Assembly: GCF_002940685.1 (NCBI RefSeq) | Contig: NZ_PNFP01000006.1 | Location: 62,001 to 126,000, forward strand | Direction: 5' to 3' | DNA: 64,000 nucleotides | DNA from: Ensifer adhaerens | GTDB lineage: Bacteria; Pseudomonadota; Alphaproteobacteria; Rhizobiales; Rhizobiaceae | Shown: piece after piece, positions 1,407 to 38,103 of the stretch | How the letters are laid out: every line of letters begins with the position of its first letter | Numbering within the stretch: the first letter of the stretch is position 1 | Notes under the pieces: model-generated | Database searches by the model: none | What the model saw: only the letters and a program-made list of their open reading frames with translations | What the model was told of the DNA's origin: nothing | Translations under genes and position numbers: made by a program

Positions 1407-2498
1407 TCACAGATAGAGACCGTCCCGTTGCGACTTCATCAGGTCGGTAATTTTGTCGTCCGGCGCGTCGGGCAGAACCAGCCGCAGCTCGACCAGCAGG
1501 TCGCCATGAGTCCCGTAAGCCCCGGGCATCCCCCTGCCCGCAAGCCGGATGACCTTGTCCGAGCCGGACCAGGCCGGCACGACCACCGTGACCGGCCCGA
1601 TTGGCGTATCGAGAACCTGCTCGCAGCCGAGAACCGCGCCCTGCAGGTCGATCGGCAAGGTGGTCATGAGATCGAGACCGCGGGTGCGGAAGGTGCCGCC
1701 CTGGTCGACCCTGAGCGTGACGACGACGTCGCCCCGCGTCATGCCGGTGACCCGGTAGCCCTGCTCCGCCAGGCGAATGGTCTGGCCGTCAACGGCGCCC
1801 GGGGGAATTTGAACCTTCAGGCTCTCGCCGTCGGGAAGCTCGACGGTGAGGCGGTGGCGGTTGATCAGGTCGTCAATGCTGACGGCGAGATCCACGGGCA
1901 GGTCCGGCACCTTTTCAGTGGTCTTTGCCGCACGGCCGCGGATGCGCCGGACGATCGCCGCCACGAGCTCGGCTGCCGGCGCCGCAGCGCGCTGCATGAG
2001 CGGCGTCTCGGTCCTGACGGCACCTTCCTGCTGCGGCTCGGGCGCCGGTTCCGGCTTGCTTTCCGCGGTCTGTGCCGGCCGTTCCGGCTCCTTCGCCGCC
2101 GCGGCCGGCTTCGGGGCCGGCTTGGGTGATGGCTTCGGCGTCGGCTGCGGCGATGGCCGGGCCGACTTGGTGCGGGCCTCCGCACCGAAGATCTGCGAAA
2201 TCGCGTCCTCGGCGGTCTCGGCGTCGACCGGCGCCTCTTCCTGAGGCCGCATCTTCGCCTTCATCGCCTCCATGCGGCGAAGCTCGGCCTCGCGGCGCGC
2301 ATAGTCATAGCGGCTTCTGAGTTTCGGATCGCGCAGGAGTTCATAGGCCTTGCCGGCCTCGGCAAAACGCTCGGCGGCGCTTGGGTCGTCCTGGTTATGG
2401 TCCGGATGCACGGCCTTTGCCAGCGAACGCCAGGCCGCCTTGATTTCGTCCTGCCCGGCGTTGCGCCGGACCCCGAGGATCACATAGGGATCACGCAT
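1407..2498 (-). CDS. J-domain co-chaperone, type B (DnaJ/CbpA-like, no zinc finger)
   Basis: Predicted DnaK partner that stimulates its ATPase through an N-terminal J-domain (residues 1-65) with the HPD tripeptide at 31-33. A charged and proline/lysine/alanine-rich linker follows (about 105-185), then a C-terminal region (about 195-350) resembling the DnaJ/CbpA substrate-binding beta domains (VQIPPGAVDGQTIRLAEQG, then the LRVDQGGTFRTRGLDLMTTL part). The CxxCxGxG zinc repeats of DnaJ are absent. Two in-frame ATGs are possible (2510 and 2498); 2498 gives M-R-D-P-Y-V-I-L-G-V, the usual J-domain beginning, but 2510 has the closer purine-rich stretch. The 208 bp between this gene and fabI should hold the fabI promoter. 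Confidence 0.88.
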   Translation of the reverse strand: MRDPYVILGVRRNAGQDEIKAAWRSLAKAVHPDHNQDDPSAAERFAEAGKAYELLRDPKLRSRYDYARREAELRRMEAMKAKMRPQEEAPVDAETAEDAISQIFGAEARTKSARPSPQPTPKPSPKPAPKPAAAAKEPERPAQTAESKPEPAPEPQQEGAVRTETPLMQRAAAPAAELVAAIVRRIRGRAAKTTEKVPDLPVDLAVSIDDLINRHRLTVELPDGESLKVQIPPGAVDGQTIRLAEQGYRVTGMTRGDVVVTLRVDQGGTFRTRGLDLMTTLPIDLQGAVLGCEQVLDTPIGPVTVVVPAWSGSDKVIRLAGRGMPGAYGTHGDLLVELRLVLPDAPDDKITDLMKSQRDGLYL

Positions 2499-2717
2499 GG
2501 GTTCTACCATCTTCTCTGATCGGCGACCGCTCCCTGACGCCCGCCATTGCCCCGATTGAAGGCGCCATCGTCGCCCGTCCATTGAACGCCGATGATCCGG
2601 AGAAGTTGCTAAATAGTGGTTAGCCACGAGACCGCCGGCGGCCATTGAGGCGGCATCGCCGGCCATCATGCGCGCATTTGCCGAAACGTGGTTAATCGCG
2701 AATTTCCGCGCCTGATC

Positions 2718-3170
2718 TCAGGCGCGCGGGCCGAAGCTCGTCAGATACCAGGCCCCGTCGCCACCCTGGCAGGTGCTGCCGTCGAACTTGGCGATGCCTT
2801 CGTAGGAATGACGTGTCGTGGTGAAGCGGCGGCAAAGCATGCCGCTCGCGCGGTCTTCCTGGATGCTGCTGATGACACCGGCGCTGCCCGAGGTCGCATT
2901 GGCCCAGGGGATCGGATTGATCGTGCCGCCACCGAGCTCGGCCGTTGTCACGGCGTTGCGAACCATCACTGCGTCGGAAAGGCCATCGGAGGTCTTGGCG
3001 ACGGGAACGGTGCCCGTCGAAACCGTGCGGTCGACGCCGCTGCCGAAAAGGTCAAGCCCAGCTCCCATGCAGCCGGACAGCACCAGGACCGGCAGGCAAA
3101 TTGCCGCGCTACGCAGCAAGGCGAAGGAATACCCCTTCTTGGCATCGATCCACTTTGCTATGTCTTGCAC
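2718..3170 (-). CDS. Surface lipoprotein, RT0821/17-kDa-antigen type
   Basis: A 150-residue exported protein. The N-terminal hydrophobic segment (about 16-33) ends in a lipobox, L-V-L-S-G-C, so C34 is the predicted lipidation site and the mature protein is anchored in a membrane, probably the outer one. The rest ([20 protein letters not shown], then [19 protein letters not shown], then [10 protein letters not shown]) resembles the RT0821/Lpp0805 surface-protein family described in Rickettsiales and Rhizobiales. Function is unknown. It is divergent from pdxH; the 140-bp gap would hold both promoters. Confidence 0.8.
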
Positions 3171-3310
3171 GGCAATCCTGTCAGACTCGCTGGAGCCGCA
3201 CGTTTCTCGACAAGGTCAACATACAGGCTCCGACATTTTCGATGCGGAAACACCGGTCGGGCTCATCCCGAAGCATTTCCGCGCCAGACATCACGGCATT
3301 GGAACGCAAT

Positions 3311-3931
3311 ATGGCGGCGAATGAGTTAACAAGCGGTGACTTCACCGAATCAAATGAACCCTTTTCCCTGTTTGGCACATGGCTGAAGGACGCGGAAGGC
3401 AGCGAGATCAACGACCCGAACGCGGTCGCGCTCGCAACCGTCGATGCGGACGGACTGCCGAACGTGCGCATGGTGCTGCTGAAGGGCTTCGACGAGCGCG
3501 GATTCGTTTTCTACACGAATTTCGAAAGTCAGAAGGGCCAGGAAATCCTTGGTGCCCGCAAGGCGGCCATGTGCTTCCACTGGAAGTCGCTGCGGCGGCA
3601 GGTGCGCGTGCGCGGCCCGGTCGAGATCGTCACCGACGCCGAGGCCGACGAATATTTCAAGAGCCGCCCGCGCGGCAGTCGCATCGGCGCCTGGGCTTCG
3701 AAGCAGTCGCGGCCGCTTGAAGGTCGTTTCGCGCTCGAAAAGGCCGTTGCCGAGTACACGGCCCGCCACGCGCTCGGCGAAATCCCGCGCCCGAGCTACT
3801 GGTCGGGCTTCCGCATCCGCCCGACGTCGATCGAGTTCTGGCACGACCGCCCGTTCCGGCTGCATGACCGAATGGAGTTTCGCCGCGAAACACCCGAAGG
3901 CGGCTGGGAAAAGGTGCGCATGTACCCTTGA
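3311..3931 (+). CDS. pdxH: Pyridoxine/pyridoxamine 5'-phosphate oxidase
   Basis: FMN enzyme that oxidises pyridoxine or pyridoxamine 5'-phosphate to pyridoxal 5'-phosphate, the final step of B6 cofactor synthesis. The 206-residue protein has family length and all hallmark blocks: [19 protein letters not shown] near the FMN phosphate, [19 protein letters not shown], and the C-terminal [11 protein letters not shown] and W-E-K-V-R-M-Y-P end. The start at 3311 (M-A-A-N-E-L-T) fits the family; the longer upstream open frame has no family similarity and runs antisense into the lipoprotein gene. Confidence 0.96.
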
Positions 3932-3980
3932 GATACGGCCGCCTGCCTCTGAGGGGCCGGGCGCCGATGCAAACCCAATA

Positions 3981-4002
3981 CTCGGCCATGCGCATGGCCG
4001 AG
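3981..4002. repeat. 22-bp perfect palindrome between pdxH and a GNAT gene
   Basis: CTCGGCCATGC is followed immediately by its exact reverse complement, giving 11-bp arms with no spacer. It has no U-run, so it is not a standard terminator. It may be an operator, a cruciform-prone site or a fragment of a dispersed palindromic element. Confidence 0.6.
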
Positions 4003-4055
4003 ATTGAACCGCGCCCTCTGCCGACCGGGCTGAACGTTTCCGTTGAGCGCTTTTG

Positions 4056-4547
4056 ATGACAGTAGATGTTCGTGATGCGACACTCGACGATATCGCCGGC
4101 TGTCACCATTGCCTCGATGACGTCGCGAAGGAGGGCCGGTGGCTTTCCCGGCTGAACGCCCCTCCCCTTGGCGGCTTTGCCGCATACATGGCCGACCTGC
4201 ATCACGCCCGGGCGCCGCAAATCGTTGCGGTCGACGATAAAGTCGTCGGCTGGTGCGATATCAGGCTGGATGCCTCACCGGTTCGAGCCCATGTCGGGAT
4301 CTTGGGCATGGGGCTCTTGCGTGCCTATCGCGGCAAGGGGATCGGCAGCCGTCTCCTGCAGATGGCCATGCACCGTGCGCGCGAACGCGGATTGGAACGC
4401 CTCGAGTTGTCGCTCCTTCACGAAAACAGCGCCGCCCGGGCGCTTTACGCGCAGTTCGGTTTTCAGATCGAAGGCCGCCGCCTTCGCGACTGGAAACATG
4501 ACGGCGTCTATCAGGACAGCATTCTCATGGCTTTTGTCTTCGATTGA
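4056..4547 (+). CDS. GNAT-family N-acetyltransferase
   Basis: A 163-residue single-domain acetyltransferase. The acetyl-CoA pyrophosphate loop is clear as L-R-A-Y-R-G-K-G-I-G-S-R-L-L (motif A, Q/RxxGxG/A) around residues 88-101, followed by the C-terminal motif B region L-E-L-S-L-L-H-E-N-S-A-A-R-A-L-Y and the ending GFQIEGRRLRDW, which resembles ribosomal-protein and small-molecule N-acetyltransferases. The substrate cannot be named. An in-frame TTG at 4053 precedes the ATG at 4056; the ATG is preferred. The gene is preceded by the 22-bp palindrome. Confidence 0.85.
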   Translation: MTVDVRDATLDDIAGCHHCLDDVAKEGRWLSRLNAPPLGGFAAYMADLHHARAPQIVAVDDKVVGWCDIRLDASPVRAHVGILGMGLLRAYRGKGIGSRLLQMAMHRARERGLERLELSLLHENSAARALYAQFGFQIEGRRLRDWKHDGVYQDSILMAFVFD

Positions 4548-4579
4548 CGTCGGAGCCTGGCTGCACCAACTCGTCCGTT

Positions 4580-5611
4580 CTAACCGGTCTTCAGCCGGAA
4601 GGGGATGCCCGATGCCAGAGCCGAGACGTAGCGGGAACGCTGGAAATGGCCGTTCAGCGATATGCGCGGCAACGCATGGAGGCCGGATTGCATCCACGCG
4701 GCGAGCGTGCCGGGTTGAGTGGTGACGGCCAGGGTGAAACCCAGGTCGGCAGCGATACCATGGTCGCGTGGGGATACCGCCGGCGCGTCGCCATAGGGAT
4801 AGGCGAAGGTCAGGGGCCGCCTTCCGGTGATCGCCTCAACGCGCCGCAGCGATTCCTCAATCTCCCGCCTCGCCTCGGCATCTGTGAGACGCGCGACCGA
4901 CCGGTGGCTGATCGTGTGGGCGCCGAGGCTTGCGAGAGGACTTTCATCCAAGCGCCGCAACCCAGCCTCATCCAGCGTCAGCCGTTCGGTGATCGCCAGG
5001 GGATCGATGCCGTGGTCAAGCGCTGCGGCATTCAGGCAAGCGATCGCCTTCGCCTCGTCATGGCTGTGAATGAAAGCCGCGATGCGGTTGAAGACCGCCT
5101 GTCGTTGTGCCGTGGCAGACACGTGCAGTGTCTCCAAACCGCGGCCGAAGTCAAAGCGCAGCGTCTCGTTCGTTGCGAGCAGGTCGGCAAGCGTCTCCCA
5201 CCAAAGCGTATGGGTGCGATCGACGAAGCCGCCAGCAACAAACACCGTGAATGGCGCCTGGTGGCGTTCGAAGATCGGCCGCGCATGTTCGAGATTGTTC
5301 CGGTAGCCGTCGTCGAGGGTAAAACAGGCGACCGGTCCGCCTTTGGTGGCCAACGCCTCCGGCAAGTGTTCGAGCGCGACGAAGCGATAGCCGTCGCGCT
5401 TCAGCGTCGTCAGCGCGACATCAAGGAAATCCGGCGTGATCTCCAGATGCGCGTTCGGATCGAAGGCACGGGCAGGTTTCGGCCGGACATGGTGCAGGGT
5501 AAAGATCGCGCCCCGCCCGCGCGCACCGGCCATCAGCCCGGCGCGGCTCAGCCCCCCGGCGACTTCCAGTCCGCCGGCGATCGCGGCGCGGCGGACGATT
5601 GTCCTGATCAT
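4580..5611 (-). CDS. Polysaccharide deacetylase (NodB-homology / CE4) family protein
   Basis: Predicted carbohydrate esterase removing acetyl groups from an N- or O-acetylated glycan. Within 343 residues the sequence shows FTLHHVRP, the metal/catalytic block C-F-T-L-D-D-G-Y-R-N-N (TFDDG motif), a later S-H-R-S/H-T-I-S-H-R-S histidine pair (H-x3-H) and FAYPYGD. These are CE4 motifs 1 to 3. The start at 5611 (M-I-R-T-I-V-R-R) has AAGAG upstream; a longer frame to 5725 has no support. No clear signal peptide is seen, so location is uncertain. It is divergent from the carboxypeptidase gene at 5854. Confidence 0.85.
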   Translation of the reverse strand: MIRTIVRRAAIAGGLEVAGGLSRAGLMAGARGRGAIFTLHHVRPKPARAFDPNAHLEITPDFLDVALTTLKRDGYRFVALEHLPEALATKGGPVACFTLDDGYRNNLEHARPIFERHQAPFTVFVAGGFVDRTHTLWWETLADLLATNETLRFDFGRGLETLHVSATAQRQAVFNRIAAFIHSHDEAKAIACLNAAALDHGIDPLAITERLTLDEAGLRRLDESPLASLGAHTISHRSVARLTDAEARREIEESLRRVEAITGRRPLTFAYPYGDAPAVSPRDHGIAADLGFTLAVTTQPGTLAAWMQSGLHALPRISLNGHFQRSRYVSALASGIPFRLKTG

Positions 5612-5853
5612 GCTCTTGATGGTCGGCCCCCAATCTGACCCGCGGGTTCCCGCAGCGTACGAGCCTGGAAAGTTAACGGCGAGGGCGTTAAACCTTGTTG
5701 AACGGGGAGAGCGTTCATCGGCCATTTACCACAACCCCGAAAACAAGGTCGAATCGCCACATTCCGCCCTAAAGTTGCAGCAAAGACACGGATCTTGTCA
5801 CAAAACGAAACAGCTTTGCGCCTGGGCGACGGCGCTCTTCGACGGGGATCGAC

Positions 5854-7131
5854 ATGAAAACTTTGCGCTGCCTGCTGCTGGCGACCTTTGCACTGGCGCT
5901 CGGGACCGCCACGGCCGTCGCCGGAAGCGCGTCGCTGGTGCTCGACGCGCGCACCGGCAAGGTCCTTTCTGCGGAAAATCCTGATGTGCTCAACCATCCG
6001 GCATCCCTGACGAAGATGATGACGGTCTACATGGCCTTCGAGGCGCTGAAGAGCGGAAAGCTATCCTGGGACAGCAAGATCAAGGTTTCGAAGGCGGCGG
6101 CGGCCAAACCGCCGATGCGCCTGGGCCTGAAGTCCGGCATGACGATCACGGTGCGCGAGGCGGTGCTCGGCATGATCGTGCGCTCCGGCAACGACGCGGC
6201 AGCCGCGATGGCCGAGAAGTTGGGTGGCTCCGAGGCGAATTTCGCCCGGATGATGACCGCCAAGGCACGTCAGCTCGGCATGAGCAAGACCGTCTTCATC
6301 AATTCTTCCGGTCTGCCGGCAAGCAAGCAAGTGACGACGGCGCGCGAAATGTCGACGCTCGCCGTTGCGCTGATGCGCGATTTCCCCAGGGAGTACCGGC
6401 TGTTTGCGACCGAGAGCTTCAACTTCCGCGGACGCAAGGTGCGGGGGCATAACAATCTGATGTACCGCTACGATGGCATGGACGGCATCAAGACCGGCTA
6501 TACCAATGCTTCCGGCTTCAACCTCGTCAGCGCCGTCAAAGACGGCAATCGCCGGGTGGTCGGCGTCGTGCTCGGCGGCAAGACGGCACGCAGCCGCGAC
6601 GCCAAGATGGCAGCACTCCTCGACCGCCATGTCGGCAAGGCGGCAAAGGGCGGCCGGCAACTGGTCGCGTCGACGCGCGGCGGCAAAGCGGTCGAAGCCC
6701 CCGTCGAAGTGGCAGCGGTCGCGACGTCAGAAGTCCCGATGCCCTACTCCGCCCCTCAGAAGTCAAAACAGGATTCCGTTGCTGCGCTGATTGCGGCGAC
6801 GGCCACCACCGCGATCCCGGCCGAACGCCCCACCGAATTGGCTGAAATTGAAACGACGGCCGCGGTGCCGGCTGCCAGCGGCGGCTGGCAGATCCAGATT
6901 TCTGCGGCCCCTTCGGCCGAGGCCGCACGCATGCTGCTTGAGCAGGCCCGCTCTGAAGCCGGCGCTCCGCTCGCAGGCGCCAAGCCCTACACCGAAGCGG
7001 TCGGCAAGGGTGCCAAGGCGATCTACCGCGCCCGCTTCGTCGGCTTTTCAGACCGCGACGCTGCCGCCGCCGCCTGCGACGCCCTCAAGCGGCGCTCCTA
7101 TGATTGCATGATGCTGCCGTCACGCGGCTGA
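5854..7131 (+). CDS. D-alanyl-D-alanine carboxypeptidase (S11) with C-terminal SPOR domain
   Basis: Periplasmic penicillin-binding protein that trims the terminal D-Ala from peptidoglycan stem peptides. A signal peptide (1-23, cleaving near A-V-A-G) is followed by the three serine-hydrolase motifs: S51-L-T-K54, S111-G-N113 and K213-T-G215. An alanine/proline-rich linker (about 270-345) leads to a C-terminal SPOR-like repeat (about 347-425, GGWQIQISAAPSAEAARMLL), which in other proteins binds denuded septal peptidoglycan. Its 425 residues are longer than E. coli DacA because of this tail and there is no DacA-type amphipathic anchor. It converges with the gene at 7153, leaving only 21 bp. Confidence 0.93.
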   Translation: MKTLRCLLLATFALALGTATAVAGSASLVLDARTGKVLSAENPDVLNHPASLTKMMTVYMAFEALKSGKLSWDSKIKVSKAAAAKPPMRLGLKSGMTITVREAVLGMIVRSGNDAAAAMAEKLGGSEANFARMMTAKARQLGMSKTVFINSSGLPASKQVTTAREMSTLAVALMRDFPREYRLFATESFNFRGRKVRGHNNLMYRYDGMDGIKTGYTNASGFNLVSAVKDGNRRVVGVVLGGKTARSRDAKMAALLDRHVGKAAKGGRQLVASTRGGKAVEAPVEVAAVATSEVPMPYSAPQKSKQDSVAALIAATATTAIPAERPTELAEIETTAAVPAASGGWQIQISAAPSAEAARMLLEQARSEAGAPLAGAKPYTEAVGKGAKAIYRARFVGFSDRDAAAAACDALKRRSYDCMMLPSRG

Positions 7132-7152
7132 CGTCGCTCAGTCCGGCGTCAA

Positions 7153-7809
7153 TCAGGCTTCGGTGACGGGTTTACGGAAGCGGTTTTCAAGCCACCAGTC
7201 GCATTGCTCCTCGGTGTAGCCAAGAAGCAGTCCTTCCTCGCGCTCGTCTTCGTCAGTCCATGGGCGCCAGTTGTTAAAAAGCCGGTGGCAGCGCTGCCTG
7301 AAGCGCTCGAAACGCCACCTTTCACCCGGCAGCGCATAGGCGAGATAAATGATGCGCTGCTCTTTCTCGCCCCCTGTTGTCGTCGGACACATCCTCGATA
7401 ACTCGAAGGTATCGAGAAGGAAGGTTCCCGCGTCCACGTGCGGTGCAAACAGCGCTCGCGTTTCCGCAAGAATAGGGGATTTAGGATCATCGCTGAAGAA
7501 TGCAAAGGGTTTTCGCCCTTCAAGCATCAGCGGAAGCTCATAGTTGGTGTGAACCAGGTAAGGGGTCGTATCGATTGCGTGTGGCCGTCGAAGCAGAGCC
7601 TCTTCGTCGGACGCGGGCAAGGCGAACCCGAACACCGACGACAGGATCGTCAGACCCTTGCGATCCAGCCGGTAGTACGCATGGTCTGGAACAACGGCGT
7701 CCCGCAGCCCCAGCGCCCGAGCAATCTCGCCCGCATCCCCGTCGAACCTGAGTTCGTGGCTTGGCGTGTTGGTCTCCGGCGACAGAAACGAGAGCTTGAA
7801 GACCGCCAT
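7153..7809 (-). CDS. Conserved-looking hypothetical protein downstream of tldD
   Basis: A 218-residue protein that I do not recognise. It has no signal peptide or membrane segment. Visible traits are a tryptophan-rich, acidic C-terminus (FNNWRPWTDEDEREEG, then EQCDWWLENRFRKP) and central FAFFSDDPKSPILAETR. The gene begins 6 nt after the tldD stop codon on the same strand, so the two are almost surely co-transcribed and perhaps translationally coupled, since no good ribosome-binding site precedes its ATG. This suggests a role near the TldD protease or its substrate, but that is inference only. Confidence 0.75.
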   Translation of the reverse strand: MAVFKLSFLSPETNTPSHELRFDGDAGEIARALGLRDAVVPDHAYYRLDRKGLTILSSVFGFALPASDEEALLRRPHAIDTTPYLVHTNYELPLMLEGRKPFAFFSDDPKSPILAETRALFAPHVDAGTFLLDTFELSRMCPTTTGGEKEQRIIYLAYALPGERWRFERFRQRCHRLFNNWRPWTDEDEREEGLLLGYTEEQCDWWLENRFRKPVTEA

Positions 7810-7815
7810 CCAATC

Positions 7816-9231
7816 TTACGCCTGCGTGCCGCCCACCGTGATCTGATCCATGCGCAGGTGCGGCTGGCCGACACCGACCGGCACCCACTGCCCGGCCTTG
7901 CCGCAATTGCCGATGCCGGTGTCGAGCTTGGTGTCGTTGCCGACCATGGTCACGCGCTTCATCGCATCCGGGCCGTTACCGATCAGCATGGCCCCCTTCA
8001 CCGGTGCGCCGATCGTGCCGTTTTCGATCAGGTAGGCCTCGGTGCAGCCGAAGACGAACTTGCCCGAGGTGATGTCCACCTGGCCGCCGCCGAAGGAAAC
8101 GGCATAGATGCCTTTCTTCACCGAGGCGATGATTTCGTCCGGCGTTTTGTCGCCCGAGAGCATGTAGGTGTTGGTCATGCGCGGCATCGGCACATGGGCA
8201 TAACCCTGGCGGCGGCCGTTGCCGGTCGGCTGCATACCCATCAGCCGCGCGTTCTGCCGGTCCTGCATGTAGCCGACGAGCTTGCCGTCCTCGATCAGCA
8301 CGTTGTAGCCGGACGGCGTGCCTTCGTCGTCGATCGAAATGGAACCACGGCGCGCCTCGATGGTGCCGTCGTCGACGACGGTCACGCCTTTCGCGGCCAC
8401 CTGCTCGCCCATCAGGCCGGCGAAGGCCGAGGTCTTCTTGCGGTTGAAATCGCCTTCCAGCCCATGACCAACGGCTTCGTGCAGCATGACGCCCGGCCAG
8501 CCGGAGGCAAGCACCACGTCCATGGTGCCGGCCGGCGCATCGATCGCCTCGAGATTGACGAGCGCCTGGCGCAGCGCCTCGTCGGCGCCGATCTTCCAGT
8601 TTTCTTGGGTAACGAAGTCGCCGAAGCCACGGCGTCCGCCGGTGCCGAAGGAGCCGCTTTCCTGGCGGTCGCCTTCGCCGGTGACGACGGAGATGTTGAT
8701 GCGGGTCATCGGGCGGATGTCATGCACCCGATGGCCGTCGGCTCGAAGGATATCGACGACCTGCCAGCTTGCGGCGATGGTCGCCGTCACCTGGCGGACC
8801 TTCGGATCCTTGGCGCGCAGATAGGCGTCGATTTCCTGGAGCAGAGCGACCTTCGCCTCGAAGCTTGGCTCGCCGATCGGGTTCTCGTCGCCATAGAGCT
8901 TCTTGTTGGTGCGCTGCGGGGCTGCGGCATAGGAGCCGGCATAGCCGCGCGTCACCTGCGCCACCGCGTCGGAAGCGCGGCGAAGCGCCGACAGGGAAAG
9001 CTCGCCGGAATGGGCGTAGCCGACCGCTTCGCCGGCAACGGCACGCAGGCCAAAGCCCTGGTCGGTGTCGAAGCTGCCGCCCTTCAGGCGCCCGTTGTCG
9101 AAGGACAGCACCTCGGCCTGGGCATGTTCGAGAAACAGTTCGCCGTCGTCGGCACCGGCAAGCGTCTCCGAGAGAACCTTGCGGATCGCTGCCTCGTCGG
9201 CATCGAAGAGGCTCATCAGATCGGTGTTCAT
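7816..9231 (-). CDS. tldD: Metalloprotease TldD
   Basis: TldD forms with TldE/PmbA a zinc protease that unfolds and degrades small peptides, including microcin B17 leader and the CcdA antitoxin in E. coli. The 471-residue protein has the TldD zinc motif H251-E-x3-H256 (HEAVGHGLEGD), and the C-terminal G-C-T-E-A-Y-L-I-E-N and KAGQWVPVGVGQPHLRMDQI blocks that include the third ligand region. Length matches the family. No tldE/pmbA lies in this window. The unknown gene at 7153 follows after 6 nt. Confidence 0.94.
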   Translation of the reverse strand: MNTDLMSLFDADEAAIRKVLSETLAGADDGELFLEHAQAEVLSFDNGRLKGGSFDTDQGFGLRAVAGEAVGYAHSGELSLSALRRASDAVAQVTRGYAGSYAAAPQRTNKKLYGDENPIGEPSFEAKVALLQEIDAYLRAKDPKVRQVTATIAASWQVVDILRADGHRVHDIRPMTRINISVVTGEGDRQESGSFGTGGRRGFGDFVTQENWKIGADEALRQALVNLEAIDAPAGTMDVVLASGWPGVMLHEAVGHGLEGDFNRKKTSAFAGLMGEQVAAKGVTVVDDGTIEARRGSISIDDEGTPSGYNVLIEDGKLVGYMQDRQNARLMGMQPTGNGRRQGYAHVPMPRMTNTYMLSGDKTPDEIIASVKKGIYAVSFGGGQVDITSGKFVFGCTEAYLIENGTIGAPVKGAMLIGNGPDAMKRVTMVGNDTKLDTGIGNCGKAGQWVPVGVGQPHLRMDQITVGGTQA

Positions 9232-9367
9232 ATTGGCACGCTCCCGCGTCAGGAATTTCTATCGCCTCCATTTAGGAAGGCGGCGGGTTCAAGCCAAGGA
9301 AAATATCACAGGCCGCATGTTTCCTCGATCCTCATCGATCGACGGAGACCTGCAGCGGCGCAGGTCG

Positions 9368-10564
9368 CTACAGCGACGCGTTCCACCCGTCGAGGTGCTC
9401 CACCTTTTCGACGCCGGCAAAGCGGGCGACCCGCTCAAGCTCGGCATCGATGCGCTCCAGGCGGCCGGCCGATGCCCTGACACCCTTTTCGAGCCAGAGC
9501 CTGCGGACATCGAGGCTGCCGCGCTTGCGGTCGGCCTTCATGTCGATGCGGCCGATCAGCCGGTCGCCCTCGATCAATGGAAAGACGTAGTAGCCGTATT
9601 CGCGCTTGGCCTCCGGCACGAAGATCTCGATACGGTAGTAGAACCCGAACAGACGCTCCGTGCGGTTGCGGTCGCGCAGGAGCGGATCGAATGGGCTGAG
9701 GACCCGCACCCGGCCGGGCGGCTCGGGGATGTCACCAAGCGTTCCCGGAAAGCCGGCAAAGGCATAGGCCAGACGCGGCCGCCCGCCATCGATCGCTTCG
9801 ATCTGCACCTCCACAAGCTCGCCGCGATGCTCGGCCACCCAGGTCTTGGCCTCTTCGGGCGACACAAGGTCCCAGAAGGCGGCGATCTCGCCATGGGTGG
9901 CAAACCCCAGTCGCTCCAGCGCGCTGCGGCAGGCCCAGTCAACGAATTCCGGGTGGCTGACATCGCCCTCGTGGTGATGCGACGGGATCACCCTTTCCGT
10001 GAGGTCGTAGACCTTCTGGAAGTTCTCCCGCCTTGCGATCGCCAGCTTGCCGGTCCGCCACAACACTTCCAGCGCCGTCTTCGACGGATGCCAGTTCCAC
10101 CAGCCGCCGGATTCGTGCTCGGCTTCCTTCAGATCGCGGGCGAGCACCGGGCCGCCCTCGGCGATGCGCTGATAGGTGTCGTCGCAGCCCTTCTCGAAGC
10201 CTTCGCCACGCCACGCCTTCCAGCGCTCCACGATCGTCTCGCCTTCCCACTTGAAGCGGTGCTTCCAGTAGCGGAAGAAGCTGCTTGGGATGATCGAGGC
10301 GTCGTGCGTCCAATGTTCGAACAGGTCGCGGTCATCCTCCAGCAGCGCCGTCAGATGTTCGCGGCGATAGGTCTGGTTGCGGGAAAACAGGATCTGGTGA
10401 TGGGCGCGCTCCACCGTTGAGATGCTGTCGACCTGCACGAAGCCGATGTCATGGATGAGCTTCAGCAGTCCTTCCTTGCCGAGCGCGCGGTTGGGCGCGC
10501 CTGAAAGGCCCTGCTTGGCGAGGAAGATGCGACGGGCGTCGCTGTTGGAGAGGCGAATCGTCAT
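9368..10564 (-). CDS. YcaQ/AlkX-type DNA glycosylase (HTH_42 family)
   Basis: A 398-residue protein of the winged-helix HTH_42 family, whose members excise alkylated bases and unhook DNA interstrand crosslinks. Family features are RRIFLAKQGL near the N-terminus, the block G-F-V-Q-V-D-S-I-S-T-V-E-R-A-H-H at 41-56, and the C-terminal R-V-R-V-L-S-P-F-D-P-L-L-R-D-R-N-R-T. Residues Q44-V-D46 form a Q-x-D catalytic pair, which as I recall is typical of the AlkX (YcaQ) branch, whereas AlkZ enzymes have Q-x-Q. It is divergent from bioM with about 130 bp between starts. Confidence 0.85.
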   Translation of the reverse strand: MTIRLSNSDARRIFLAKQGLSGAPNRALGKEGLLKLIHDIGFVQVDSISTVERAHHQILFSRNQTYRREHLTALLEDDRDLFEHWTHDASIIPSSFFRYWKHRFKWEGETIVERWKAWRGEGFEKGCDDTYQRIAEGGPVLARDLKEAEHESGGWWNWHPSKTALEVLWRTGKLAIARRENFQKVYDLTERVIPSHHHEGDVSHPEFVDWACRSALERLGFATHGEIAAFWDLVSPEEAKTWVAEHRGELVEVQIEAIDGGRPRLAYAFAGFPGTLGDIPEPPGRVRVLSPFDPLLRDRNRTERLFGFYYRIEIFVPEAKREYGYYVFPLIEGDRLIGRIDMKADRKRGSLDVRRLWLEKGVRASAGRLERIDAELERVARFAGVEKVEHLDGWNASL

Positions 10565-36235: not shown

Positions 36236-37480
36236 TCAGGCGACCCGTGAAAGCGGAGTCGCATCGCCCTGCAGGCGTTGCTCCATGAATTTGCAATACC
36301 ACTCGACGAACTGCATCACGCCGCCTTCGTGCTCGGGCGAGTAGGGTCCGGGCTCATAGGCAGGCGAGCGGATTCCGAAGGCATTTTCCTCGACGATCTG
36401 GCGATCCTGATCGTTGGTCTCGGTCCAGACATGGGTCAGGTCCTCGAGGTTGTAATCGACGCCCTCGACCGCGTCCTTGTTGACCAGCCACTTCGTCGTC
36501 ACCTGGGTGAGTTCGGGGCCGAGCGGCAGCACGCGGAAGGTGATGGCGTGGTCGGCGAGCACATGGTTCCAGGTGGTGGGATAATGGAACATCAGGAGCG
36601 TGCCGATCTGCTTCTGGAGGACATCGGCCGATAGTGCCCGCTTCACCGCGCGCGCCCCCGACATGGTGTAGCTTTCGGCATTGTCGACGAGCGGCATGCG
36701 GGCGGCGCGGAACTGGCCGGTCGGCGACATCCTGAATTCGCTCGGCAGGCCCTCCGCCTCGCACTTCGCCCAGTGCTCGGCGATGACAGGATCGTCCTTG
36801 GCGCCCTGAACGCCGGTTGCCGTCGGCGCTTCCGGATAGGTGCGGCAGAGTTCCGGGTGATTGGCGGCGCAATGGTAGCACTCGCGGTTGTTTTCCCAGA
36901 CGAGCTTCCAGTTGCCCTTTTCGACGATCGTGCTTTCGAAGGCGACCTTGGTTTCGCCGAGGCGATGCGGCGCGAGATAGGGCGTGACCAGCTCACGGAA
37001 CGCGGCGAAGTCCGCGGGCTTGTCCGAAAGATTGATGAAGATGTAGCCGCCGACCGTCTCGCAGTGGATCGGCTTCAGGCTGTGGGCCGCCTTGTCGAAA
37101 TCCTCGCCCATCTGGCGGGCAAAGAGCAGCGAGCCGTCGAGTTCGTAGGTCCACTGGTGATAGGGACAGACGAGTTTTGCCGACGAGCCCTTTGCCTGCG
37201 TGCAGACGCGGGAGCCGCGGTGGCGGCAGGCGTTGTGCAGGGCGCGGATCGTGCCCTGGCGGTCACGGGTGATAACCACAGGATAGTCGCCGACCTGGAC
37301 GGTGAAGTAATTGCCGGCCCGCGGGATTTCGCAGTCATGGCCGATGAACAGCCAATCCCTGTACCAGATGTTTTCCAGATCCTGCCGATAGTAGTCGGGA
37401 TCGATGTAGAAGGCCCGATCGAGGCTGTAGCCGTCGCGCCGACCCTTCAGCTTTCGAAGCATATCGTTTCTGGTGTCCAT
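36236..37480 (-). CDS. gbcA: Rieske non-heme iron oxygenase, glycine betaine demethylase-like
   Basis: Oxygenase that, if it is GbcA, converts glycine betaine to dimethylglycine with release of formaldehyde. The 414-residue protein has the Rieske ligands C85-x-H87 and C105-x2-H108, and the mononuclear iron site E200-C-Y-H203-x4-H208 in N-N-R-E-C-Y-H-C-A-A-N-H, with the later N-D-Q-D-R-Q-I-V-E-E-N block supplying the aspartate. Length and the N-R-E-C-Y-H-C block fit GbcA better than carnitine CntA; stachydrine demethylase remains possible. It is preceded by a cobalamin riboswitch and an SD-masking hairpin. gbcB overlaps its end. Confidence 0.87.
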   Translation of the reverse strand: MDTRNDMLRKLKGRRDGYSLDRAFYIDPDYYRQDLENIWYRDWLFIGHDCEIPRAGNYFTVQVGDYPVVITRDRQGTIRALHNACRHRGSRVCTQAKGSSAKLVCPYHQWTYELDGSLLFARQMGEDFDKAAHSLKPIHCETVGGYIFINLSDKPADFAAFRELVTPYLAPHRLGETKVAFESTIVEKGNWKLVWENNRECYHCAANHPELCRTYPEAPTATGVQGAKDDPVIAEHWAKCEAEGLPSEFRMSPTGQFRAARMPLVDNAESYTMSGARAVKRALSADVLQKQIGTLLMFHYPTTWNHVLADHAITFRVLPLGPELTQVTTKWLVNKDAVEGVDYNLEDLTHVWTETNDQDRQIVEENAFGIRSPAYEPGPYSPEHEGGVMQFVEWYCKFMEQRLQGDATPLSRVA

Positions 37481-37481
37481 G

Positions 37482-37522
37482 TCCTGTCCTCATGCGCCAT
37501 GTTTCGGAGAGGCAGGACAGGA
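37482..37522 (-). promoter_or_regulatory. Shine-Dalgarno-sequestering hairpin before gbcA
   Basis: On the minus strand the ribosome-binding site GAGGACAGGAC abuts the gbcA ATG. Twenty-three nt upstream is TCCTGTCCT, the perfect 9-nt complement of AGGACAGGA. Pairing would hide the ribosome-binding site. This suits the expression platform of a translational riboswitch. Confidence 0.7.
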
Positions 37523-37591
37523 ACCCGCACGGGCGCACGCCCATGCGTTCTCGGCTCCGATCCGGCTGCCCGCCGCAACCCGTTACGGTTA

Positions 37592-37775
37592 TGTCCGTCA
37601 AGGCTGGTTTCCGGGCTCAGGAGCCGTCCGTTCGGACCAGCCCGGCGCCTTCCCGGACGAACCCGTCCAGTGGCCTTTGCCGAGGCTTTCGCTCCACCAC
37701 CGTTGCGGGGGCAGCGCCGGGATTTGACCGGCTTCCCAATTCTCCGTCCCCTCTTCGAAGACGGCACCTTGAGTA
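37592..37775 (-). promoter_or_regulatory. Cobalamin (AdoCbl) riboswitch upstream of gbcAB
   Basis: Read on the minus strand, the conserved blocks occur in order: AAGGTGCC at the 5' end, GGGAAGCCGGTC-AAATCCCGGC, GCTGCCCCCGCAACGGT, GGCCACTGG, GGGAAGGCGCCGG, and a B12-box-like GAGCCCGGAAACCAGCC. These match the P3-P6 core of the cobalamin riboswitch class, including the GCCACTG and CCGCAAC signatures. The element ends about 110 nt before the gbcA ATG, with no other gene between, so the regulated gene should be gbcA. Confidence 0.9.
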
Positions 37776-38103
37776 AGGATATGTAAGCTTGGAACCCCGC
37801 CCGAGAGCTGCCGGATAGCGACATCCGATTCCAGAATGACGACACGGATAATTCGGATGAGAACGACCAGGAATTTATGTTTTATGCATTATAAACAGAT
37901 GGATAGATTAATTATTGGGCACTTGCCGCCTTTTGCGCCCGGTCTGTCGCCGGCGCGTGAAGACTTCGCCCGTTTGCGACATCTGCCTCATGGGCAGGCC
38001 ATGATGTCCGCACCGGATCGAAATCTTTCGTTAACCATGAGGCGTTAGCTTTGCGCGGCGGACGACAGGTCCGGCAAGGCAGGCAGATGGCGCGCTGACG
38101 ATC
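37776..38103. other. Intergenic region with promoter of the riboswitch transcript and of the downstream plus-strand gene
   Basis: This stretch of 328 bp contains a marked AT-rich part at 37850-37915 (AATTTATGTTTTATGCATTA, then GATTAATTATTGGGC), likely promoter DNA for divergent transcripts. I see no gene, repeat or RNA motif in it. Confidence 0.5.

Follow-up and report, generated by a model that had tools for sequence, protein, structure and literature searches.

The locus described here raises the question of why a cobalamin riboswitch should stand in front of a Rieske oxygenase gene and its reductase partner. In S. meliloti, Rfam cobalamin riboswitches, one of them before smc00982, have been in print since 2007 (PMC2245857), this copy lying between the divergent genes SMc00983 and SMc00982 (PMC2573895); SMc00982 likely encodes a dioxygenase (PMC2848018) and SMc00981 is described as a putative ferredoxin protein (PMC12542648). 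Judged by the riboswitch, the gene pair and the divergent neighbour, SMc00982-SMc00981 is probably the orthologue of the operon studied here. The SMc00982 transcript was reported to be decreased in an hfq mutant, as was that of SMc04439, a likely glycine betaine uptake gene (PMC2848018). Isozymes of B12-dependent enzymes constitute one class of riboswitch targets in PMC3766115, the available main text of which mentions neither betaine nor dioxygenase. Within the accessible portions of the open-licence literature, we found no explanation of this riboswitch and no description of the operon as a B12-independent isozyme. Rodionov et al. 2003 (J Biol Chem) reportedly list a B12-regulated dioxygenase/ferredoxin pair, ardX-frdX, and the riboswitch-gene pairing may have been noted already in 2003; a search of the open-licence literature for ardX/frdX with B12 gave nothing relevant.

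The original prediction, made from the letters of the window (the whole 64 kb stretch of DNA analysed), had placed a cobalamin riboswitch on the minus strand at 37592-37775 and proposed an Infernal search against Rfam. Indeed, cmscan returned RF00174 (Cobalamin) over a slightly longer extent (Table 1), scoring 116.2 bits (gathering score 31.5) with an E value of 1.9e-28. The match spans the entire model (1-189 of 189) and is the sole RNA family match at gathering threshold within the window. In an alignment of 31 homologous riboswitches, two-sided changes were observed in 19 of 50 pairs, compared to a shuffled mean of 10.9, with none of 500 shuffles as high, and every covariation measure dropped when the pairing partners were slid by 1-3 columns. 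The RNA structure in the window is conserved among its homologues, and the leader RNA would be expected to respond to adenosylcobalamin.

Table 1 Features of the riboswitch-controlled oxygenase locus in the window
Feature	Position	Strand	Basis
Cobalamin riboswitch aptamer (RF00174), complete	37585..37786	-	cmscan; covariation in 31 homologues
Predicted hairpin TCCTGTCCT / AGGACAGGA that would mask the Shine-Dalgarno sequence as far as the start codon	37482..37522	-	RNA fold
Rieske oxygenase, GbcA/Stc2 group (here gbcA), 414 aa	36236..37480	-	Pfam Rieske + Ring_hydroxyl_A; NF058607 below cut-off; Stc2 identity
Ferredoxin-NAD(P)H reductase partner (here gbcB), 364 aa	35140..36234	-	Pfam Fer2, NAD_binding_1, FAD_binding_6; NF058606 below cut-off

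Gene calls were based on codon usage, with 12 genes of the window as the training set. The oxygenase is the next gene on the minus strand after the riboswitch, its start lying about 105 bases downstream, and the reductase gene begins one base past the oxygenase stop. No gene was called between riboswitch and oxygenase, in agreement with the earlier view of a riboswitch directly before a two-gene operon. Folding of 37455-37600 gave a z score of -3.28, with none of 200 shuffles equally stable, and the TCCTGTCCT/AGGACAGGA helix beat all 30 shuffles, suggesting that the predicted hairpin is a probable translational expression platform. A comparable hairpin, similar in position and different in letters, was predicted in some other genera (L113, L134 and L186). 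Across the family, where 6 of 81 loci had no usable start, 55 loci with a riboswitch and 20 without showed no difference in the unpaired probability of the Shine-Dalgarno sequence (p 0.15); the helix scored higher in the riboswitch-bearing loci (p 0.011), but this difference disappeared against shuffles (p 0.34). The family-wide test is thus weak, and the hairpin is claimed for the genus of this strain only.

The oxygenase contains the Pfam domains Rieske (PF00355) and Ring_hydroxyl_A (PF00848), with a C.H...C..H motif from residue 85; it belongs to the Rieske N-demethylase group (GbcA/Stc2), as evidenced by the presence of both the Rieske [2Fe-2S] motif and the ring-hydroxylase catalytic domain. 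The best NCBIfam model for this protein is the GbcA equivalog NF058607, at 515.7 bits under a cut-off of 670, while the reductase reached 391.3 bits with the GbcB model NF058606, under a cut-off of 500. The oxygenase/reductase operon that had been named gbcA-gbcB is thus real, but both names fall short of the curated cut-offs, and formal naming of the oxygenase as GbcA was not adopted. The protein is 55.8% identical to Stc2 (3vca) and 57.1% to 3n0q, and 45-49% identical to four compared GbcA proteins that exceed the NCBIfam cut-off. Stc2 is presumably a stachydrine demethylase; the PDB entries 3vca and 4qup carry the titles dioxygenase and demethylase. In a gene tree, the window clade, a Stc2-like clade and a GbcA clade form three separate groups, the deep order of which is unsure, with paralogues from contigs C12 and C23 of the same genome on very long branches.

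Three weaker oxygenase relatives are encoded in the genome of this strain, with identities of 43%, 36% and, for a partial one, 30%. The GbcA model gave 387 bits for the first (408 over a longer frame) and 259 bits for the second; by this model, the window oxygenase is the strongest candidate for a betaine demethylase that the genome offers. The enzyme of the operon is probably a demethylase of betaine-like compounds; its substrate would be glycine betaine or a related molecule, for example stachydrine, and the sequence does not choose between them. Two further loci of this genome were observed alongside. On contig C12 (C12:33401-50000, L102), an MTTB protein adjoins, at 1709-9773, a further Rieske oxygenase and two fusions of an FAD-oxidoreductase with GcvT, with a corrinoid-type and an oxygen-type demethylase next to each other. 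Contig C23 (L104, 9577-18163) carries another pair of Rieske oxygenase and reductase genes (43% identity), neighboured by a zinc alcohol dehydrogenase, an FMN/OYE-type oxidoreductase and, by eye, electron-transfer-flavoprotein-like genes, a locus that resembles catabolic clusters for betaine or stachydrine.

The genome (7.5 Mb, 81 contigs) holds eight cobalamin riboswitches. By gene order, the seven others precede BtuF-like transport genes (two), an nrdHIEF cluster, metE, BluB (297.7 bits, cut-off 150), CbtA and a CobU cluster; nrdH, nrdI, nrdF, cobW and cobN were named by eye. Given the riboswitches before metE and the nrdHIEF cluster, two of the seven are thus predicted to control B12-independent isozymes. 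A stretch of about 15 kb on contig C34 encodes MtgB (PF06253, 773 bits), MtgC (a corrinoid protein with two B12-binding domains), a DUF1638 protein, MetF2 and its C-terminal partner, the pterin-binding MtgD, and RACo. A B12-dependent demethylase of the betaine type (MtgB, MtgC, MtgD, MetF2 and RACo) is encoded in the same genome as gbcAB. Ruegeria pomeroyi demethylates glycine betaine with such a cobalamin-dependent set, as reported from mtgC and mtgD mutants and from proteomics for MtgB, MetF2 and RamA, and the set is colocalised in S. meliloti (PMC12478193). The same paper gives formaldehyde as the GbcAB product; in its available text a link between GbcAB and a riboswitch is absent, the word "riboswitch" appearing once, in the reference list.

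We propose, with a probability of roughly 80%, that gbcAB encodes a riboswitch-controlled, B12-independent and O2-dependent quaternary-amine N-demethylase serving as backup for the MtgB/MtgC/MtgD set of the same genome, the two systems presumably acting on the same substrate. A variant that shares the backup logic and is not an exclusive rival may be entertained tentatively, in which the operon demethylates another quaternary amine (stachydrine, a carnitine-like compound or other) and stands in for an MttB-family enzyme. Such a substrate would suit the greater identity of the oxygenase to Stc2 than to the four compared GbcA proteins, the four MTTB proteins encoded in this genome, and the Eubacterium relatives of MtgB, which use several betaines via one MtgC-type core protein (PMC12478193). 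However, the GbcA profile ranks the window protein and four other tested members of its clade (502.9-525.0 bits) over four tested Stc2-like sequences (470.3-486.9), all below 670, and the MtgB of the C34 cluster, besides PDB 4yyc (1134.1 bits), matches 9yce, a glycine betaine methyltransferase structure (421.5 bits).

The backup proposal was followed through a survey of 198 genomes of the same family with completeness of at least 95%. Oxygenase matches at E 1e-80 or better occur in 105 of them, and a close orthologue (at least 667.9 bits, 66-100% identity) in 81, the genome of this strain included; matches of 40-58% identity, L190-L193 among them, were left out before this count. MtgC was found in 142 of the 198 genomes and MtgB in exactly those 142. 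For the 80 genomes other than that of this strain, the surroundings of gbcA were searched with a purpose-built covariance model made from the window and 30 of a set of 80 named loci, so that the named loci used in building it match by construction; the survey and named sets overlap in part (e.g. L013/L110, L038/L122 and L053/L123) and their counts are not independent.

A riboswitch precedes the oxygenase on the same strand in 55 of 57 MtgC-bearing genomes, counting that of this strain, and in 2 of the 24 without MtgC (Fisher p 1.9e-15, kinship uncorrected), those two lacking a B12 box; retention of the riboswitch follows that of the B12-dependent enzyme. In the 56 fetched loci with a riboswitch, 88-177 bases separate its end from the start of the gene. 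The two genomes with MtgC but no riboswitch (L157 and L160) belong to one genus, and in the sister clade nearest Stc2 (L190-L193) three of four members come from MtgC-bearing genomes and none has the riboswitch. A joint retention of riboswitch and gbcAB in relatives, which had been put forward as a check, was hence observed in nearly all of these MtgC-bearing genomes and in two of the MtgC-lacking ones. MtgC lies near gbcAB in none of the 80 fetched loci, and the association is therefore not one of linkage. A model of dependent evolution was preferred (LR 41.8, 4 df, p 1.9e-8, a rough value since some rates sat at optimiser bounds). The second choice of the original prediction, an oxygenase that takes the place of a B12-dependent methyl transfer, fits a riboswitch that tracks MtgBC.

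Among named loci, MtgC was sought in 79 genomes (L060 left out). The riboswitch is present in 67 of the 69 with MtgC, L072 being without it and the contig of L074 ending too early. In the ten without MtgC it is absent from L036, L051, L067 and L085, present as a copy without the B12 box in L037, L038, L041 and L053, and reduced to cut-down relics before gbcA in L083 (5804-5912, Rhizobium lusitanum) and L084 (5806-5914, R. freirei), in which 48 of 58 core positions are gone. The reference for these core positions was a set of 31 copies taken from genomes with MtgC, a set that includes some of the same strains. In the survey, 54 fetched copies come from MtgC-bearing genomes; 44 of them are unchanged at all 58 positions and 53 have four or fewer changes, while a relaxed pattern finds the B12 box in 52, the two others being L136, a poor copy with 10 of 58 positions changed, and L186, which differs at only 2 core positions. 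The two MtgC-lacking survey exceptions have 11 and 12 of the 58 positions changed (12 and 14 in another alignment), in addition to the missing B12 box.

It could be argued that the riboswitch is inherited baggage without a functional tie to MtgBC, both traits having been lost in the same lineages, since close genomes share both states and only four independent pairs sit on well-supported branches (traits together in 3.9 on average, p 0.125). We regard this as unlikely, because each trait changes 11 times on the tree, a gene tree and not a species tree, with the dependent model strongly preferred, because other cobalamin riboswitches are kept in the same genomes, and because the core is largely intact in copies with MtgC and broken in those found without it.

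The first explanation given in the original prediction was that betaine breakdown feeds corrin synthesis, gbcAB being induced at low B12 as a source of glycine, from which 5-aminolevulinate is made, and of one-carbon units for SAM. A B12 riboswitch does precede the operon, and betaine stimulates industrial B12 production (PMC8123684). CobN was sought in 36 of the 198 survey genomes and found in 19 of the 24 that have the oxygenase and lack MtgC (five of these matches only 40-49% identical), suggesting that many of them may make corrinoids, but the riboswitch before gbcAB is either missing (22) or without a B12 box (2) in these 24 genomes. All 24 do have cobalamin riboswitches elsewhere, one to six per genome, and together with CobN these indicate that loss of the gbcAB riboswitch is not loss of B12 biology. 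CobN was also found in 7 of 10 genomes with MtgC and riboswitch (G034, G119 and G157 gave no match at the threshold used, which again speaks against a corrin-feeding role) and in both genomes with MtgC but no riboswitch; it does not separate the groups. Tested in this way, the explanation was not supported and appears very improbable.

The surroundings of gbcAB were inspected in the 80 loci over a fetched stretch of 8 kb upstream and 3.5 kb downstream of gbcA. Among the 56 riboswitch-bearing loci, nrdAB is present in 6, metE in 4 and the B12-dependent metH in 9 (L148, L152, L143, L163, L177, L183, L133, L186 and L179). Either nrdAB or metE, or both, occurs in 8 of these 56 loci against none of the 24 others, and nrdAB, metE or metH in 16 of 56 against none of 24; these loci come from related genera and represent few independent events, and the neighbours of most other loci are unremarkable. 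A riboswitch precedes nrdA in five of the six nrdAB loci, the stretch of L143 stopping inside nrdA, and metE has a riboswitch close before it in all four cases, three of them known from the genome-wide riboswitch positions, of which the best 150 matches across the 198 genomes were listed. The arrangement in L187 (G119) is riboswitch-nrdAB-riboswitch-gbcAB, followed by metE on the opposite strand with its own riboswitch past the stretch, and L154 (G034) likewise contains nrdAB, gbcAB and metE. The B12-independent enzymes of these two loci form a cluster in which every member has a cobalamin riboswitch of its own.

For the proposed backup demethylase, the following course can be envisaged. When B12 is plentiful, adenosylcobalamin would bind the leader RNA and the hairpin over the ribosome-binding site would hold gbcAB translation low, while MtgBCD would transfer the methyl group to tetrahydrofolate. 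Under a shortage of B12 or cobalt, MtgC would fail and the riboswitch would open, and gbcAB would then take off the methyl group at the expense of O2 with release of formaldehyde. Such a course would extend the metE/metH and nrdAB/nrdJ logic to osmolyte catabolism.

On this basis, it seems somewhat probable that in many root and soil Rhizobiaceae the B12 or cobalt status sets the fate of methyl groups from plant betaines, as methyl-tetrahydrofolate through MtgBCD with B12 and as formaldehyde through the O2-dependent demethylase without it. gbcAB would be a third kind of B12-independent backup beside metE and nrd, in some genera within one riboswitch-rich cluster, and selection on its riboswitch would come from MtgBCD, so that the element decays once MtgBCD is lost. 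If true, osmolyte demethylation would join the short list of steps with a B12-independent spare under a B12 riboswitch, there would be an explanation for the riboswitch on record since 2007 upstream of an S. meliloti gene called only a likely dioxygenase, and the O2-dependent betaine route in rhizobia would acquire a testable role. The riboswitch may also serve as a comparative marker, its pattern of retention and decay pointing to the B12-dependent enzyme that is replaced by the regulated gene.

Several known systems resemble gbcAB in part. A close regulatory parallel is metE, likewise a B12-free enzyme behind a cobalamin riboswitch with a B12-dependent counterpart (MetH), which occurs with its riboswitch in this genome as well and near gbcAB in four survey loci; it serves methionine synthesis, whereas gbcAB would perform catabolic demethylation of an osmolyte, with the methyl group lost as formaldehyde instead of kept. 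The B12-independent ribonucleotide reductases nrdAB and nrdHIEF under cobalamin riboswitches follow the same logic, but catalyse another reaction in nucleotide metabolism. In terms of the enzyme itself, the GbcAB glycine betaine monooxygenase of Pseudomonas and Chromohalobacter has the same two-gene Rieske oxygenase/reductase architecture and family, although it falls in a clade separate from the window oxygenase. Stc2 (3vca, 4qup) belongs to the same Rieske N-demethylase group and again to a separate clade, the four survey members of which have no riboswitch. MtgBCD, as described in Ruegeria (PMC12478193) and with homologues in this genome, is proposed to achieve the same net demethylation with cobalamin and tetrahydrofolate and without O2; it is unrelated to gbcAB and is the enzyme that gbcAB is proposed to replace.
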